Source of the DNA: Opitutus sp.
Lineage (GTDB): Bacteria; Verrucomicrobiota; Verrucomicrobiae; Opitutales; Opitutaceae
Assembly: GCA_009695065.1 (NCBI GenBank)
Contig: SIBR01000035.1
Coordinates: 1 to 40,212, forward strand
Direction of reading: 5' to 3'
Length of the DNA stretch: 40,212 nucleotides
Of this stretch, positions 5,922-39,611 are shown in pieces. The position numbers and the translations under genes are program-made. The notes under the pieces are model-generated. The model saw only the letters and a program-made list of their open reading frames with translations, had not been told where the DNA came from and made no database searches. Every line of letters starts with the position of its first letter. Position 1 is the first letter of the stretch.

Positions 5922-7034
5922 GTGACTTCCGACGAAATCAAAGAGCAGCTTAAACAGGTAAAATATCCCGGCTTCAGCCGGGATATCGTGTCTTTTGGAC
6001 TCGTGCGTTCGGCGGGCTTCGTCGACGGCACGGCCAAAGTGGCGGTCGCCCTCACGACGAACGATCCGAAGGTGCCGCTCCAGCTAAAGAAGGAAATCGA
6101 GGCCTGTCTGCGAGTGTTGCCCGGCGTCCGGGACATCATCGTCGAGATCTCGGTCGCCGCCGTGAAAGCGCCGGCCGCCGCCGGCCGCCCCACCGGGGGG
6201 GCGACGGCCAACCTCGCGGGCAACAGTTCCGCCGCGAAATCGATCCGCCGCGCCGTTGCTATCGCTTCCGGCAAAGGCGGCGTGGGGAAAAGCACGTTTT
6301 CCGTGAACCTCGCCTGCGCGCTCGCGCAGGTGCTCACGCTGCAGGGCCGGCCGGGACGCGTGGGCTTGATGGATTGCGACATTTACGGCCCCAGCGTACC
6401 GCTGATGATGGGCCTCAAGGGCCGGCCCGAGGTCGAAGGCGACGGCCCGGATGCGGTGCTCGTGCCGATGGAGCGCCACGGTGTGAAGGTCATGAGCATG
6501 GGTTTCCTCGTCGACGACAACACGCCGGTGGTGTGGCGCGGGCCGATGATCATGAAGACGGTGCAGCAGTTCGTCCAAAATGTACGCTGGGGCGAACTCG
6601 ACATCCTGCTCGTCGACCTGCCCCCGGGCACGGGCGACGCTCAACTCTCACTCGTGCAGACCCTGCCGCTCGACGGCGCAGTGATCGTGACAACGCCCCA
6701 GCCGGCGGCCACCAACGTCGCGCGCAAAGGCGGCCTGATGTTTCAAAAGGTCAATGTACCCCTGCTGGGCGTGGCCGAAAACATGAGTTACTTCACCGAT
6801 CCCGCCGGCAACAAACACACCCTGTTTGGCTCGGGTGGCGGCATTCTAACCGCCGAAAAGCTTGGCACCACCCTGCTCGGTCAGGTGCCGCTAATCGCCG
6901 CCATCCGCGAGGGCGGCGACAGCGGCGAACCCATCGTGGTCAGCGCACCGCAAAGCGAAGCCGCGAACGTGTTTCGCACCATCGCCGAAACGTTGCTCAA
7001 CCGCCTGGCGCAGCCGAGCACATTAGGAATGTGA
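5922..7034 (+). CDS. mrp: Mrp/ApbC-family P-loop ATPase with N-terminal MIP18 (DUF59) domain, lacking CxxC
   Basis: The 370-residue product starts at a GTG. Residues 1-85 form an iron-sulfur-assembly MIP18-like domain, a linker rich in Ala, Gly and Pro follows, and the rest is a ParA/MinD-type ATPase. The deviant Walker A reads GKGGVGKST, the switch region holds DCDIYGPSVP, and Walker B is ILLVDLPPGTGD. Mrp/ApbC/NBP35 proteins carry or transfer Fe-S clusters. In most of them a CxxC pair after ENMS binds a bridging cluster; here that site reads ENMSYFTDPAGNKHT with no cysteine, as in some other lineages, so cluster binding by that site is not expected. It begins about 100 bases from the divergent tolB-like gene. 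Confidence 0.88.
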   Translation: MTSDEIKEQLKQVKYPGFSRDIVSFGLVRSAGFVDGTAKVAVALTTNDPKVPLQLKKEIEACLRVLPGVRDIIVEISVAAVKAPAAAGRPTGGATANLAGNSSAAKSIRRAVAIASGKGGVGKSTFSVNLACALAQVLTLQGRPGRVGLMDCDIYGPSVPLMMGLKGRPEVEGDGPDAVLVPMERHGVKVMSMGFLVDDNTPVVWRGPMIMKTVQQFVQNVRWGELDILLVDLPPGTGDAQLSLVQTLPLDGAVIVTTPQPAATNVARKGGLMFQKVNVPLLGVAENMSYFTDPAGNKHTLFGSGGGILTAEKLGTTLLGQVPLIAAIREGGDSGEPIVVSAPQSEAANVFRTIAETLLNRLAQPSTLGM

Positions 7035-7482: not shown

Positions 7483-7647
7483 TTACTTGATCTCCTTGTG
7501 GAGCGTGTGGCGCTTGAGGAAGGGGTTGTATTTCTTCTTCTCGATGCGCTCGGTCACGGTCTTCTTGTTGCGCTTGGTGAGGTAGCGAGAGACCGGCTTG
7601 CCCTCTTTCTTGGCTTCGGTGCACTCCAGGATGACTTGTTCTTGCAT
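7483..7647 (-). CDS. rpmG: 50S ribosomal protein L33
   Basis: This 54-residue basic protein reads [13 protein letters not shown], then [17 protein letters not shown] and [17 protein letters not shown], which is the full L33 pattern (x-x-YxTxKNK, lE-KKYnP-lrkH). L33 sits near the E site of the large subunit. Only one cysteine is present, so this is the zinc-independent C-minus type. The ATG at 7647 has no Shine-Dalgarno sequence. A terminator lies immediately downstream. The diadenylate cyclase fusion gene lies 99 bases upstream on the same strand and may share a transcript. Confidence 0.95.
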
Positions 7648-7746: not shown

Positions 7747-9090
7747 TCAGCGCCGTTTTTCCGTCAGCGGCAGCATCACGCCGCGGCGGAACAGCGTCAC
7801 TTGGCCCGTGCTCGATGAAACGACGATCGAGATGCAATTGGCCGCGACACTGATCGCACCGGCCGCCGCATGCCGGCTGCCCAGCCCGCTGGGCAGCTCA
7901 TGGGTGCTGTCGGTGGCCTGGATCAGGCTGCCGGCCGATTCCACCACCCCGTCGCCGCGGATGATGAACGCCCCGTCGATCGAGGAAAACTCCTTCACGG
8001 TTTCATCCATGAACGGGTTCAGGATGTTCCGGTCCTCCTCCTTGTAGCCGAAAAAGGGATTGAGCACGAGGGGCTTGGAAAGCGACTTCACCTTCTCGAC
8101 GTCGCCCACCACGAACAGGGAACCCACCGGACGGCCTTCGCGACCCTCCACGGCGAGTTCCGTCGCGACCGCGATCACCCGTTCCAGCACCTCGGGCTTC
8201 ACATCCTCCGGCAGTAAATCGGCCGTGGAACCCGTCAGCAGGGTCTGAAACTCGCGCTCGATATCCACCACCACCAGGGTGTCGAACTGGTTGCTGCCCG
8301 TGATGCCGCCCACGCAGCAAATGCGATCGGTGAATGTCACGATGCCGCGGGTGAGCGCGACGAGCATCGCGCTGCGCAATTGCGCCAGCCGCTGGTTCGA
8401 AAAGGAACGCACCTGGATCGTCTCGCTGAATTGCTGCGCGTCGTCGCGGGTTTCGAGCGCCGTCCGGGTAACCAGGATGGACTTCAACCGGGAACGCAAA
8501 ACGCCGGGCTGGATGCCGCCGACGAAGGTGTCGCCGAACACCACGATGGCGCTGCAATCCGCCCCTTTCGCGATCCGTTCCGCTTCGCGAAACATCAGGC
8601 GGTTGACGCGATTCTGCTGCGCATCGACGCCCCGAATGCCGCTGAACCCGCCGATCAAGCGTTCATACAGCGCGTCGAGGTCGGGCGCGTTGACGAGATT
8701 CTGGACGAGTTCCCGATCCTTGACCTGGCGGGCGATCGACGCGAGCACCTGCAGGTAGTCGCGGGCGTTCTCGCCGGCGATGAGCATCACGATGAGATGC
8801 ACCCGCTCGTCGGCCAGCGCCCCATCGTGCCGGATCCCAACCCGGCTGCGCCCGATGGCGAGGACGTAGCGCCGGCTCATTTTCACCCGCACGTGGGGCA
8901 GCGCGACGCCGAAACCCAGATAGGTCGTCATCGTGCTTTCGCGGGCGAGCAGGCCCTTCAGCAGCGACTCCGGCTTGAGATTGGGGAATTTCCCGACGCA
9001 GACGTCCAGCAGTTCCTGCAAGGCCGTCTCAAGGTCGAGACTGACCAAGTCCACGATCCGGCCCCGGGCGATGATCCGATCGAGCCGCAT
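7747..9090 (-). CDS. Three-domain protein: PTS EIIA-like, pyruvate-kinase-C-like, diadenylate cyclase (DAC)
   Basis: A 447-residue cytoplasmic protein with three parts. Residues 1 to about 150 resemble PTS EIIA of the fructose/nitrogen type, with the phosphorylatable histidine H66 in GFGVALPHVRV. Residues about 160-280 resemble the pyruvate kinase C-terminal fold: REAERIAKGADCSAIVVF near the start and GIVTFTDRICCVGGITGS near the end. Residues about 290-447 form a DAC (DisA_N) domain: EGREGRPVGSLFVVGD, the catalytic DGA at 372-374 and RHAAA at 406-410. DAC enzymes condense two ATP to c-di-AMP. The PK_C-DAC pairing is known from CdaZ/DacZ enzymes; the additional EIIA domain suggests control by phosphoryl transfer, which is inference. 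No membrane segment is present, unlike CdaA, and no DisA DNA-binding part. nuoA lies 38 bases upstream on the same strand. Confidence 0.88.
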   Translation of the reverse strand: MRLDRIIARGRIVDLVSLDLETALQELLDVCVGKFPNLKPESLLKGLLARESTMTTYLGFGVALPHVRVKMSRRYVLAIGRSRVGIRHDGALADERVHLIVMLIAGENARDYLQVLASIARQVKDRELVQNLVNAPDLDALYERLIGGFSGIRGVDAQQNRVNRLMFREAERIAKGADCSAIVVFGDTFVGGIQPGVLRSRLKSILVTRTALETRDDAQQFSETIQVRSFSNQRLAQLRSAMLVALTRGIVTFTDRICCVGGITGSNQFDTLVVVDIEREFQTLLTGSTADLLPEDVKPEVLERVIAVATELAVEGREGRPVGSLFVVGDVEKVKSLSKPLVLNPFFGYKEEDRNILNPFMDETVKEFSSIDGAFIIRGDGVVESAGSLIQATDSTHELPSGLGSRHAAAGAISVAANCISIVVSSSTGQVTLFRRGVMLPLTEKRR

Positions 9091-9128: not shown

Positions 9129-9503
9129 TCACTTCTCCCACTGCAAGGCGCCCTTCTTGATTTCGTAGATCAAGCCCAGCACGAGCACGCCGATAAAAAA
9201 CAGGATCGGACCGAGGATCGTAATGCCGTTGGCGAGAAACTCGCGGTAAATAAAGGTCCACGGCACGAGGATCACGATTTCCAGATCGAAGAGCATAAAC
9301 AACAGCGCGGTGAGATAGAATTTCACCGAAAAGCGCGTGTGGATGATGCCCTCGCCCGCGACCCCGCACTCGTAGGCCGAATCCTTGATCTTCGTGTGCC
9401 GGGCGCGCTGGCCGAAGAAATGGCTCGCGCCAATAATGACGGCCGTGATCGCCGCGGCGAGCAGGGCCTGGATGAGAAAAGGCAGATAGGCGGCAGCGGT
9501 CAT
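9129..9503 (-). CDS. nuoA: NADH-quinone oxidoreductase subunit A (complex I), isolated gene
   Basis: A 124-residue membrane protein with three predicted helices: residues about 8-28, 62-82 and 92-114. Family marks are YECGVAGEG (with the conserved loop cysteine), RFSVKFYLTALLFMLFDLE and a C-terminal IYEIKKGALQWEK. NuoA sits in the proton-pumping membrane arm of complex I beside NuoH, NuoJ and NuoK; the loop cysteine is part of the quinone-site region. No other nuo gene is next to it: upstream is a DUF362-like gene and downstream the DAC fusion, so the remaining subunits must be encoded elsewhere. The start has no Shine-Dalgarno motif. Confidence 0.93.
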   Translation of the reverse strand: MTAAAYLPFLIQALLAAAITAVIIGASHFFGQRARHTKIKDSAYECGVAGEGIIHTRFSVKFYLTALLFMLFDLEIVILVPWTFIYREFLANGITILGPILFFIGVLVLGLIYEIKKGALQWEK

Positions 9504-15487: not shown

Positions 15488-17806
15488 TCAGTCCGCCGGT
15501 GGATCCAAGTCCACTTCTTCCGGCTTTTCCCGCAGCCATTCCTTAAATTTTTCGATGTGGACCGGCGCGCCAAGGACCAGGATCTCGTCGCCCGTCCGCA
15601 GCAGCTCATGCGCGCTGGGGTTGAGCACCCTTATCCCGCCCCGATGCACCCCGGCGATCTGGACATTATGATGCCGGGCCGGCGACAGCTCGCCCAAGGT
15701 TTTTCCGGCCGCCCGGCTCCAGCCCGGCACGAACACGGCCTCCATCCGCACCTCTTCGAAAACGGACTCGGCCACCGGCCCGCCGGACACTCCGCTAAGA
15801 ATCTTCTTTCCGGCGCGAACCTGCTCGGTCGTGCCCATCAACAAGACCTTGTCCCGCGGGAAGAGCACAGCGTCGGGCGGCGGCAGCGGGATCATGAAAC
15901 CCTGTCGCTCGATCCCGACGACCGAACAGCCGACGCGCGCCCGCAGGTCGAGCTCCGCGATCTGTTTACCTTGGCAATCCGCCAGGTCGGGCAGTGTGCA
16001 ATCGATCATGTGCAGGTTCCATTCGCCGTGCTGCTGCAACCAGGGGGCGGTCGTCGCGGTCATCCGGTTGTCCGCCGTCTCCATCACGCTCAACAACTCG
16101 ACCTCCATCTCGCTGTGCCAGTAGATCAACTTGCGTCGCAGCACGAGCAGTGCGGCCACCGCGCCCACCCCCGTGAAAATCAGCAGCCACCGCGCTGTGC
16201 CTTCCGCGGGCAGGATCGACGCCAGCCAGACAAACAACGCCCCGCCGAAGCCGATCTTCAGTCCCGCTTCGATCAACGGCCGCAGCCGCTTCGCATGCAC
16301 GTGGCCCCGGGTTGAAATTTCCGCGTAGAGCATGGCCATGGCGGAGAGGTTGCGCCAGATCGCGACCAGCGGCGCGAGCGTCGCCAGCACGAGCGCCGTC
16401 CAGAAAACCAGTTCCAGCCCGTGGGGAAAAATCCAGTCGCGCCCGAGCCACGCCTCCGTCAGCGCAAAAAGCTGCCCGGAAAACACCACGAGGCCGGTCA
16501 CGAACAGCATGCCGACACTCACCTGGGCCACGCGCCGGCGGCTCAACTGCCAGAGCAAATTGCGCCGACCGCGCTGGGCCAGCCGTTCCTGCCAGCCATG
16601 ATAGGCCTGCAGCCAGTCGTTCAACCAGCGCGGTTGCCGGGCGAGGATCGCGTCGGCGATTTTCTCCGAGCGGCGGGTCAGCACCGGCGCCACGAGCGTA
16701 GTCGCGAGCGAAACCCCGACGGCCAGAGGATAAAATCTCGGCGGCACCACCGCCGCCCCCACGCCGAGCTGCGCGATGATGAACGAAAATTCCCCGATCG
16801 GCGTCGCCGTCAGGCCCGTCCGCAGGGCGTCCTTGAGCGGCGTGCCGATGATCATCAGTCCCGTGCCCACCGCCAGCGGCCGTGCCAGCAGGGTGAAAGC
16901 CGCGACTCCCAGGATCAGGCCGATCTCCCGCCCGAGGTCGCGCGCATCGATCTGCATTCCGATCGCGACGAAAAAAACCGCGCTGAATACGTCCCGCATC
17001 CCCGCGAAGGTCCGTTCGACCTGATGGCGGTGCGGAGTTTCCGCCACGATCGTGCCGAGGAGAAACGCGCCGAGCGCGAGCGAATAGCCGGCGCTTTGGG
17101 CCACGACGGCCAGGCCGAATAGCAGGCCGGCGATCCCCAGCGTCTGCAATTCCTCGTCCGCCGAAATGCTCATGCGTTTCAGCAGCCATGGCACGAGCAG
17201 GAGCCCGGCGATCCCGGCCAGCACGACGAAGGCCCCGAGCAGAAGCAGGGTCTCGCCGACCCGCGTTCCCCCGCCCTTGCCGAACTGTACCATCGAATTC
17301 AAAATGGTCAGCATCACGACCGCGACCACGTCCTCGAGCACCGCCACCCCCATCGCCAGCTGGCCGGCGCGTTCGTGATTCGAACCGGTCTCTTGCAGGA
17401 TCTTGCTGATGATCGCCGACGAAGAAACCATGAGCATGCCCGCGAGAAAAAGCCCCTCGGAGCTGGACCAGCCGAGCGTCACGGCCAGCAACCGCGACAG
17501 ATAATACATGACGATGGCCCCGCAGAACGTCGCCAGCATGAGCGACAAGCCCAGCCGGCGCATCTTGCGTAAGCTCAGTCCGAGCCCGATGGAGAACATG
17601 AGGAACACCAGCCCGACTTGGGACAGCGTTTCGATCCGCTCGGCCTCCGTCACGAGTGCGAACGGCGGGGTGAACGGCCCGACCACCATGCCAGCCACGA
17701 GAAAGCCCACCACCACCGACAGGCCGATGCGCTGACAGCACCAGCCCACGATCCCCGCCACCGCCAGCACCACCGCCAGATCCTGGATGAAATTTATTCC
17801 GTGCAT
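15488..17806 (-). CDS. Kef-type (CPA2) monovalent cation/proton antiporter with two RCK_C-like domains
   Basis: The 772-residue product from the ATG at 17806 begins MHGINFIQDLAVVLAVAGIV, a typical CPA2 first helix; in-frame codons further upstream are Arg-rich and rejected. About the first 380 residues form the Na/H exchanger domain with many helices, including VVGFLVAGMVVGPF and LSQVGLVFLMFSIGLGLSL. A linker and further hydrophobic helices follow up to about residue 560. The C-terminus holds two RCK_C/TrkA_C-like units, about residues 598-698 (QIAELDLRARVGCSVVGIERQG) and 699-772 (GKTLGELSPARHHNVQIAG). No Rossmann RCK_N domain with GxGxxG is visible. RCK_C domains bind c-di-AMP in several known transporters; binding here is a hypothesis. 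Confidence 0.88.
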   Translation of the reverse strand: MHGINFIQDLAVVLAVAGIVGWCCQRIGLSVVVGFLVAGMVVGPFTPPFALVTEAERIETLSQVGLVFLMFSIGLGLSLRKMRRLGLSLMLATFCGAIVMYYLSRLLAVTLGWSSSEGLFLAGMLMVSSSAIISKILQETGSNHERAGQLAMGVAVLEDVVAVVMLTILNSMVQFGKGGGTRVGETLLLLGAFVVLAGIAGLLLVPWLLKRMSISADEELQTLGIAGLLFGLAVVAQSAGYSLALGAFLLGTIVAETPHRHQVERTFAGMRDVFSAVFFVAIGMQIDARDLGREIGLILGVAAFTLLARPLAVGTGLMIIGTPLKDALRTGLTATPIGEFSFIIAQLGVGAAVVPPRFYPLAVGVSLATTLVAPVLTRRSEKIADAILARQPRWLNDWLQAYHGWQERLAQRGRRNLLWQLSRRRVAQVSVGMLFVTGLVVFSGQLFALTEAWLGRDWIFPHGLELVFWTALVLATLAPLVAIWRNLSAMAMLYAEISTRGHVHAKRLRPLIEAGLKIGFGGALFVWLASILPAEGTARWLLIFTGVGAVAALLVLRRKLIYWHSEMEVELLSVMETADNRMTATTAPWLQQHGEWNLHMIDCTLPDLADCQGKQIAELDLRARVGCSVVGIERQGFMIPLPPPDAVLFPRDKVLLMGTTEQVRAGKKILSGVSGGPVAESVFEEVRMEAVFVPGWSRAAGKTLGELSPARHHNVQIAGVHRGGIRVLNPSAHELLRTGDEILVLGAPVHIEKFKEWLREKPEEVDLDPPAD

Positions 17807-17921
17807 GGGCAAGCCGCGCCCACGAAAACGCGGTGAACCGCGCGGCGCGTCAAGCGCGCATCCCGCCGCGGCCCGGCGCGTGCGCATCGAACCCGCCCTC
17901 TTCCGCCGGTTCCGCGGCGGG

Positions 17922-18359
17922 CTACACCAGACCCAGCGGCAGCGACCGCACCCGCTTGCCGGTCGCCGCGAGCACCGCATTCGACAACGCCGGCGCCGCG
18001 ATGCCCCATTTTTCTACCGCCGCCTGCACCAACGAAGCCCGCGCGGTCGCGCCGGCCTGCCGCATCTGTTCGCAGGACTCCCAGGTGCTCGTGCTGCCGC
18101 CGGTCATCTGGATGCCGAAAGCCGTATGCGCAAACCGCTGCGCGGCGGGGGCCGCCTCGACCGTGATCTTCGTCCAGTCCGCATCGAGTTCCTCCGCCAC
18201 ACACATCGCGATGGAGGTGCAAATTCCCTGCCCCATCTCCGAATGCTTCGCCAGGATCGTGATCGCCCCATCCGGGGCGATCCGCAAAAACGCGTTGAGG
18301 GCCAAGGCCGCCCCGCCGGATTCGGCCGCCGCCAGTCTCGGAGCCAGGCGAAATCCCAT
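17922..18359 (-). pseudogene. Truncated IorB-like molybdopterin-binding subunit (isoquinoline 1-oxidoreductase beta/aldehyde dehydrogenase type)
   Basis: The frame gives only about 145 residues, while intact members are about 700-750. The visible part matches the family's early region: LNAFLRIAPDGAITILAKHSEMGQGICTS, AEELDADW, HTAFGIQMTGGSTSTWESCEQMRQAGA. After VEKWGIAAPALSNAV the frame degenerates and stops, and only about 115 bases remain before the antiporter start, so the cofactor-binding body is missing. The usual Tat signal peptide at the N-terminus is also not visible. The ATG at 18359 lies three bases after the iorA stop; an alternative TTG at 18365 overlaps it. This is a remnant that cannot be a working oxidoreductase unless the 145-residue fragment has a new role. 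Confidence 0.72.
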
Positions 18360-38265: not shown

Positions 38266-38310
38266 GCCATACTTCGCTCGACCGGCAACGCCGGTCGAGC
38301 GTAGTATGGC
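38266..38310. repeat. Long near-perfect palindrome abutting the 3' end of tRNA-Arg
   Basis: The 21-base arms at 38266-38286 and 38290-38310 are complementary except for one mismatch, with a loop of AAC. The right arm ends exactly at the tRNA discriminator base and contains the encoded CCA. There is no T-run, so it is not a standard terminator of the minus-strand tRNA. Its form (long stem, tiny loop, one mismatch) resembles a dispersed palindromic (REP-like) repeat unit. Confidence 0.85.
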
Positions 38311-38383
38311 GCGGTGGAGGTGACTCGAACACCCGACCGGCGGTTTAGAAAACCGCTGCTCTATCCAGCTGAGCTACCACCGC
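38307..38383 (-). tRNA. tRNA-Arg (anticodon UCU), CCA encoded
   Basis: On the minus strand a full cloverleaf is seen: acceptor GCGGTGG paired with CCACCGC, D-arm GCTCAGCTGGATAGAGC, anticodon arm GCGGT-TTTCTAA-ACCGC with anticodon TCT, a five-base variable loop, T-arm GGGTG-TTCGAGT-CACCT, discriminator G and encoded CCA. It reads AGA codons, and AGG by wobble. The host composition ends at its 5' end, where the AT-richer segment begins. Confidence 0.97.
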
Positions 38384-38471: not shown

Positions 38472-39611
38472 ATGAGAACTCCAACGCTTCGGGTTGTTCG
38501 CTACGGGTCTTCTGGAACATCTAAGTTTGTTGTGGAAGGATTACGCGTGGCTGGCAAGCGCACCCGAAAGTTTTTTCGCACACAACGCACCGCCGCTGCT
38601 TGGCTTAGAAAGACCCAAGCGCGCATGAAGAACGAGGGAGAGGTGGCTATTCATATGCCCGAGAGGCTGCGCATTGATGCGTTAGCATGTGCGGCGAAGC
38701 TTAAGCCTTACGATAAGACCATAACGGACGCTACAGACCACTATCTAGCCCATTTGGCTATGGTATCACGCAGCTGCACGGTGCAGGCGCTAATTGTTGA
38801 GTTTATGGCCGCAAAAACGCAGGATGGGGCATCGGAGCGATACCTGAAAGACCTGCGTAATCGTCTAGCTATTTTTGAGGTGGATTTTGGGGCGGCAAAT
38901 GCAGGCGAGGCATTGCCTAACCAGATTGATGATTGGCTCCGGAGCTTGAAGGGTGCTGCCCAAACACGAAATAACTACCGCACTATTTTGCGTACGCTCT
39001 TTGAATACGCTGTCTCACGAGGCTATGCGAAGGAGAACGTCGTAGCCAAGTTGGCTAAGGCTAAAGTAGTCCGTGGCGCGCCTGAGATATTCACTCCAGC
39101 GCAAATGCAGTCCGTCTTAGAAAAAGCTCCCAGGGACTTTATTCCCTATCTCGCGATTGGTGCATTTGCTGGTTTGCGGTCGGCTGAGATTGAGCGACTT
39201 GACTGGTCAGAAATCGACCTCACTGGAAAGCTGATTCATATTAAGGCGGAGAAATCAAAGAGCGCGCAACGCAGACTAGTTGTAATAAGTAAAAATCTGC
39301 TCGCCTGGCTTGCCCCATATTCTCGCAAGGAGGGACTAGTGGCAGATCCAGAGCGTGTGCGGGTTGCACGGGCTAAAATCTGCGAAGCGGCTAAGATTGT
39401 CTGGCCCGCTAATGTGCTCCGTCACTCCTTTGCATCCTATCATTTAGCATATCATCAAAATGCTGCGGCAACGGCCGCTGAATTGGGCCATGCTTCACCT
39501 GCGATGCTCTACAAGCACTACAGGGAATTAGTGAAGCCCGATGCGGCTGCTCAATGGTGGAGCATATCGCCGCCTGCTGATTACGGCAACGTGGTAGTTT
39601 TTAGTGCGTAA
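38472..39611 (+). CDS. Phage/island-type tyrosine recombinase (integrase)
   Basis: A 379-residue integrase of an integrated element. An N-terminal arm-binding region (RKFFRTQRTAAAWLRK) is followed by a SAM-like core-binding domain (about residues 105-190) and the catalytic domain. Catalytic residues: R236 in AGLRSAEI, a lysine in AEKSKSAQRR (K261 or K263), N314-R317 in NVLRHSF where the first box position is Asn rather than His, H340 in ELGHAS and the nucleophile Y350 in YKHYREL. Codon use is far more AT-rich than in the genes to the left, consistent with horizontal transfer. It lies 88 bases from the 5' end of tRNA-Arg and points away from it. It differs from the chromosomal XerD-like protein at 1669. 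Confidence 0.92.
   Translation: MRTPTLRVVRYGSSGTSKFVVEGLRVAGKRTRKFFRTQRTAAAWLRKTQARMKNEGEVAIHMPERLRIDALACAAKLKPYDKTITDATDHYLAHLAMVSRSCTVQALIVEFMAAKTQDGASERYLKDLRNRLAIFEVDFGAANAGEALPNQIDDWLRSLKGAAQTRNNYRTILRTLFEYAVSRGYAKENVVAKLAKAKVVRGAPEIFTPAQMQSVLEKAPRDFIPYLAIGAFAGLRSAEIERLDWSEIDLTGKLIHIKAEKSKSAQRRLVVISKNLLAWLAPYSRKEGLVADPERVRVARAKICEAAKIVWPANVLRHSFASYHLAYHQNAAATAAELGHASPAMLYKHYRELVKPDAAAQWWSISPPADYGNVVVFSA

Follow-up and report, generated by a model that had tools for sequence, protein, structure and literature searches.

The signals that control diadenylate cyclases are largely an open question, and a PTS domain tied covalently to what is usually the sole c-di-AMP synthase would be an input open to testing. 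Among the described enzymes, CdaA has a transmembrane N-terminal part, and the other part of DisA is DNA-binding. Both share the DAC fold and the DGA motif with the protein reported here, but they carry RHR where it has RHA, and their N-terminal architectures differ from its EIIA domain and PK_C fold. Regulators of the EIIA-Ntr type act by protein contact. A DacD class of cyclases was reportedly drawn with a PTS EIIA domain by Corrigan and Grundling in 2013, and Galperin is said to have catalogued DAC architectures in 2023; the Pfam name DacZ_P may, we assume, stem from that catalogue. The DacD representatives named in a 2019 paper (PMC6741144) are from Lacunisphaera limnophila, a Puniceicoccaceae bacterium, Coraliomargarita, a Verrucomicrobia bacterium and an Opitutae bacterium, all five of them verrucomicrobial. 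Section 3.1 of the same paper places a PK_C-type fold before the DAC domain of archaeal DacZ. For the enzyme of Haloferax volcanii, it reports c-di-AMP synthesis in vitro with manganese and an essential dacZ gene, and it describes E. coli as lacking a DAC (PMC6741144).

Domain architecture and classification

The gene described here lies in a 40,212-nucleotide stretch of Opitutus sp. DNA, referred to as the window. It occupies positions 7747..9090 on the reverse strand and encodes, from an ATG start to a TGA stop, a protein of 447 amino acids in which an EIIA domain, a DacZ_P domain of PK_C fold and a DAC domain follow one another. A sequence-only reading had claimed a fusion of EIIA, PK_C-like and DAC parts and had suggested a domain search and structure prediction. 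Both were run, and both recovered the three parts: all three domains scored above their Pfam cut-offs and the predicted folds agreed. Chance motif matches were ruled out as an explanation: the curated cut-offs were passed, and the three domains had matches in 67, 67 and 68 of the 68 relatives.

The PTS_EIIA_2 domain (PF00359; residues 19-145, positions 8656..9036, reverse strand) exceeded the Pfam cut-off, was predicted to adopt an EIIA fold and contains a phosphorylatable histidine, the putative phosphorylated His66 encoded at 8893-8895. Arg50 is conserved, and Tyr112 stands where EIIA-Ntr has a histidine. The middle domain, DacZ_P (residues 160-283, positions 8242..8613, reverse strand), is a probable sensor domain. 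It matched its Pfam model at 105.9 bits against a cut-off of 27.4, and its predicted fold, directly before the DAC domain, is that of the pyruvate kinase C-terminal domain. The DAC catalytic domain (residues 313-438, positions 7777..8154, reverse strand) contains DGA at 372-374 and RHA at 406-408. These motifs and H66 had been read correctly from the single sequence.

A PK_C-fold domain directly before DAC and the catalytic DG and RH residues, the two marks of the DacZ superfamily, were both found in the window protein. Against the archaeal DacZ equivalog model NF041371 (NCBIfam) it scored 121.2 bits, below the cut-off of 430; by this measure it is a relative of archaeal DacZ and not the same equivalog. 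Like DacZ (DacY/CdaZ) of H. volcanii and Methanocaldococcus jannaschii, it has a PK_C-type fold followed by DAC, and like the H. volcanii enzyme it has RHX instead of RHR. The H. volcanii protein differs in having no EIIA match and in beginning with another Pfam family, DACZ_N. Compared with EIIA-Ntr (PtsN) and the mannitol-fructose EIIA proteins, the window EIIA is distinguished by its fusion to a second-messenger synthase, and by Tyr112 in place of a histidine of EIIA-Ntr.

The window protein is best explained as a diadenylate cyclase, probably soluble, that belongs to the DacZ superfamily and probably to the verrucomicrobial 'DacD' type. The identity with DacD is probable on the ground of taxon. 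The likeness lies in the shared phylum, whose fusion-bearing genomes mostly yielded no second DAC. The first definition of DacD may have passed over the middle PK_C-fold domain, and no other difference is known. The architecture is thus probably not new and has probably been catalogued before in Verrucomicrobiota. The earlier statement that no characterized enzyme with these three parts was known holds as far as the literature was searched, since the searches found no EIIA-DAC or DacD enzyme studied in the laboratory; as a statement about architecture it is weaker, the arrangement probably having been named DacD already.

Occurrence of the fusion

Residue counts were based on 148 tblastn loci. 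Six that were not full length (L097, L158, L162, L164, L165 and L166) were dropped, and the remaining 142 together with the window protein gave 136 distinct sequences. For one of them, L080, the readable part ends after 69 residues; it was counted for H66 and R50 but is a gap at later positions, where 135 sequences are readable. This locus has one in-frame stop in a draft genome (at about 8208), after residue 69, and its match continues to residue 447; the stop may be a sequencing error or mark a broken gene.

The 120 best-listed homologues were 88-100% identical to the window protein, and all had the same three Pfam families. In a scan of named genomes, the titles of the best 80 of 326 relatives belonged to Verrucomicrobiota (Opitutae, Opitutaceae, Opitutus and others). 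Among 387 genomes from the phylum of a close relative, 65 encoded the fusion over its length. A single DAC was found in 57 of these 65 and a second in the other 8 (genome completeness not given), so that in the 57 the fusion must be the source of c-di-AMP if those cells make it. Matches were also seen in 45 plasmid records and 12 phage records, none of which covered 80% of the fusion protein.

The phylum that holds the fusion also has DacZ-like cyclases whose loci gave no EIIA match (L162, L164 and L166). Genomes G129 and G360 encode such a protein, and G186 has the fusion together with a second DacZ-like protein that lacks EIIA (L166). A further locus, L165 in G259, is cut by the start of its contig, and any EIIA part would fall beyond it. 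The DAC searches covered the 65 fusion genomes together with G129, G360 and G259, 68 in all.

The EIIA domain and the PTS relay

H66 was kept in 132 of the 136 distinct sequences and R50 in 135. The loop that holds both (residues 46-70) had a mean conservation of 0.80, against 0.65 for the whole EIIA domain (68 rows). In the four exceptions H66 is replaced by Tyr (L152), Ser (L154 and L155) or Cys (L156), with D372, G373, R406 and H407 intact. At least two changes on the tree are needed to account for these losses; the tree was built quickly and its branches are long, and only this minimum was used. Since at least two lineages lost H66 and kept the DAC motifs, phosphorylation is not indispensable everywhere, and the enzyme can be retained in its absence. 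As judged from these substitutions, the EIIA part is a pseudo-receiver in some lineages, those without H66. A pairing of H66 loss with loss of the relay was considered and was not supported: EI and HPr persist in all four of these genomes.

The histidine of EIIA-Ntr that aligns with Tyr112 is, we presume, its second active-site histidine. At this position the 136 distinct sequences have Y (125), T (5), F (2), H (2), L (1) and a gap (1). The same tyrosine was found in all eight free-standing EIIA genes inspected, from eight related genomes, so Tyr112 may mark the EIIA proteins of this group rather than the fusion.

The components that could phosphorylate H66 were common in relatives. The EI N-domain and HPr were each found in 68 of 68 genomes, and HPr kinase in 67. 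Sugar permease components were rarer, with EIIC (PF02378) in 8 of the 68 and EIIB (PF02302) in 6, all within those 8, leaving 60 with neither; mannose, galactitol and glucitol types lie outside this count. The relay is therefore probably regulatory in most of these genomes. As a control, HPr was found in 386 of the 387 genomes of the phylum, and its co-occurrence with the fusion consequently neither discriminates nor proves a link. All 15 genomes searched for EIIA had two or more matches, and the true target of the relay could accordingly be a different EIIA.

An EI with a GAF domain is PtsP, of the PTS-Ntr branch. The one EI scanned, that of G001, a close relative that was the nearest whole genome used and the centre of the comparison, contains all three EI domains and gave no match to GAF, and the HPr of G001 has the HARP His and the NGKS Ser. 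G001 is one of the eight genomes with EIIC. In the sequence-only reading the input had been given as carbon or nitrogen status. For G001, an EI of the PtsI type, together with HPr and HPr kinase, is a better fit than PTS-Ntr.

The mechanism that we infer begins with transfer of phosphate from EI~P and HPr~P to H66. The phosphorylation state of EIIA, transmitted through the PK_C-fold domain, would then change the assembly or activity of the DAC domain, which would make c-di-AMP from ATP under the regulation of the two N-terminal modules. The PK_C-fold domain may also bind a small metabolite. By this route PEP and carbon status would set the c-di-AMP level, up or down, most likely for potassium or osmotic homeostasis. 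Control of c-di-AMP synthesis through H66 had been proposed before this analysis, and from the sequence data it appears plausible, at roughly an even chance. It fits the retention of H66 and R50 and the presence of EI and HPr in every relative examined; it is weakened by the near-universality of HPr in the phylum and by the 4 of 136 sequences that lack H66 and keep their catalytic residues. Since the residue (H66) and the donors (EI and HPr) are defined and natural variants without H66 exist (L152, L154, L155 and L156), such an input would be directly testable.

The best-surviving alternative, possible though clearly less probable, is an active synthase governed mainly by a small molecule at the PK_C-fold domain, with EIIA serving as a docking or scaffold part and phosphorylation of H66 absent or minor. 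The loss of H66 in at least two lineages that retained the DAC motifs suggests as much, as do the DacZ-like proteins of the same phylum whose loci gave no EIIA match, and the arrangement of a PK_C-type fold before DAC is common to the window protein and to archaeal DacZ as described in PMC6741144. Such a purely structural role for EIIA sits poorly with the near-complete retention of H66 and R50 and with the conservation of their loop above the rest of the domain.

Gene neighbourhood

The gene nuoA (complex I chain 3; positions 9129..9503, reverse strand) lies 38 bp upstream of the fusion gene on the same strand. Where the upstream sequence exceeded 1.5 kb (109 loci), a nuoA match was found directly upstream in 98, with a gap between matches of at most 178 bp; counted by distinct DAC sequences, the figure was 97 of 108. 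The 109 loci, like the 111 used for the downstream side, include some repeat copies of one genome. The pairing holds even beside proteins only 38-41% identical to that of the window (L154-L156); the 11 loci without nuoA are L142, L152, L169 and the most divergent, L157-L164. A Pfam scan of 16 further ORFs in the window found no other nuo gene. On the downstream side the fusion gene is followed, on its own strand, by rpmG for ribosomal protein L33 (positions 7483..7647, reverse strand), which was found in 68 of the 111 loci whose downstream sequence exceeded 1.5 kb.

RCK_C domains are c-di-AMP receptors in other bacteria. A cation/proton antiporter of the CPA2 family, containing two TrkA_C (RCK_C) stretches, is encoded 6.4 kb from the fusion gene (positions 15488-17980, reverse strand) and is a candidate c-di-AMP receptor. 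Of the 49 loci flanked by 7.5 kb or more, 31 had such an antiporter gene upstream, relative to the direction of the DAC gene. The 7TMR-HDED domain, typical of PgpH c-di-AMP hydrolases, was found in 55 of 68 genomes. These surroundings, together with 7TMR-HDED, appear compatible with a working c-di-AMP circuit.

Phosphoryl control through H66 can be extended, as a tentative and rather doubtful proposal, to the wider role of the relay. The Opitutae-type PTS may have mostly lost its sugar permeases and survive as a relay of EI, HPr, HPr kinase and EIIA, whose hard-wired output would be the only c-di-AMP synthase of the cell. With this synthase made together with nuoA, PEP status and respiration would jointly set potassium and osmotic control.

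Elsewhere in the window, an Mrp/NUBPL-like iron-sulphur P-loop NTPase is encoded at positions 5922-7034 on the forward strand, near the nuoA-dac pair in many of the listed loci. An Rfam search of the window at gathering score matched tRNA as the sole family. A tRNA-Arg gene (positions 38307-38383, reverse strand) adjoins a phage-type integrase gene (positions 38472-39611, forward strand) whose third-position GC is lower (0.50); the pair may mark one end of an integrated element.

Active site of the DAC domain

D372, G373, R406, H407, A409, S425 and S427 were invariant in all 135 readable distinct sequences. The third residue of the RHR motif, A408 in the window protein, was A in 130 of these, T in 3, S in 1 and R in 1.

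The invariance of the catalytic residues bears on an unlikely reading in which the flow of information is reversed: c-di-AMP or ATP on the DAC domain would control EIIA, which would act on partners such as kinases or potassium transport, as EIIA-Ntr does elsewhere. The protein-contact precedent of EIIA-Ntr and the nearby TrkA_C antiporter, with its recurrence upstream in many loci, speak for it. Against it stand the fully conserved catalytic residues and the finding that 57 of 65 genomes with the fusion gave no other DAC match. Synthesis of c-di-AMP under phosphoryl control is preferred.

Among the 120 best-listed relatives of a Haladaptatus DacZ, none has Arg at the third position of the motif (M in 108, N in 7, H in 3, W in 1 and L in 1); the entry bearing the name Haloferax volcanii diadenylate cyclase has RHM. 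That enzyme being active, RHA is no argument against activity, though no proof of it. A catalytically dead relic, for which the RHA of nearly all sequences and the single RHR might be taken to speak, is very improbable given the working RHM enzyme of H. volcanii (PMC6741144), the invariant D372, G373, R406 and H407 and the usual position of the fusion as sole DAC found; inactivity on account of RHA was accordingly rejected. Judged by the relatives of the Haladaptatus DacZ and by the H. volcanii enzyme, the third Arg of RHR is dispensable in the DacZ superfamily.
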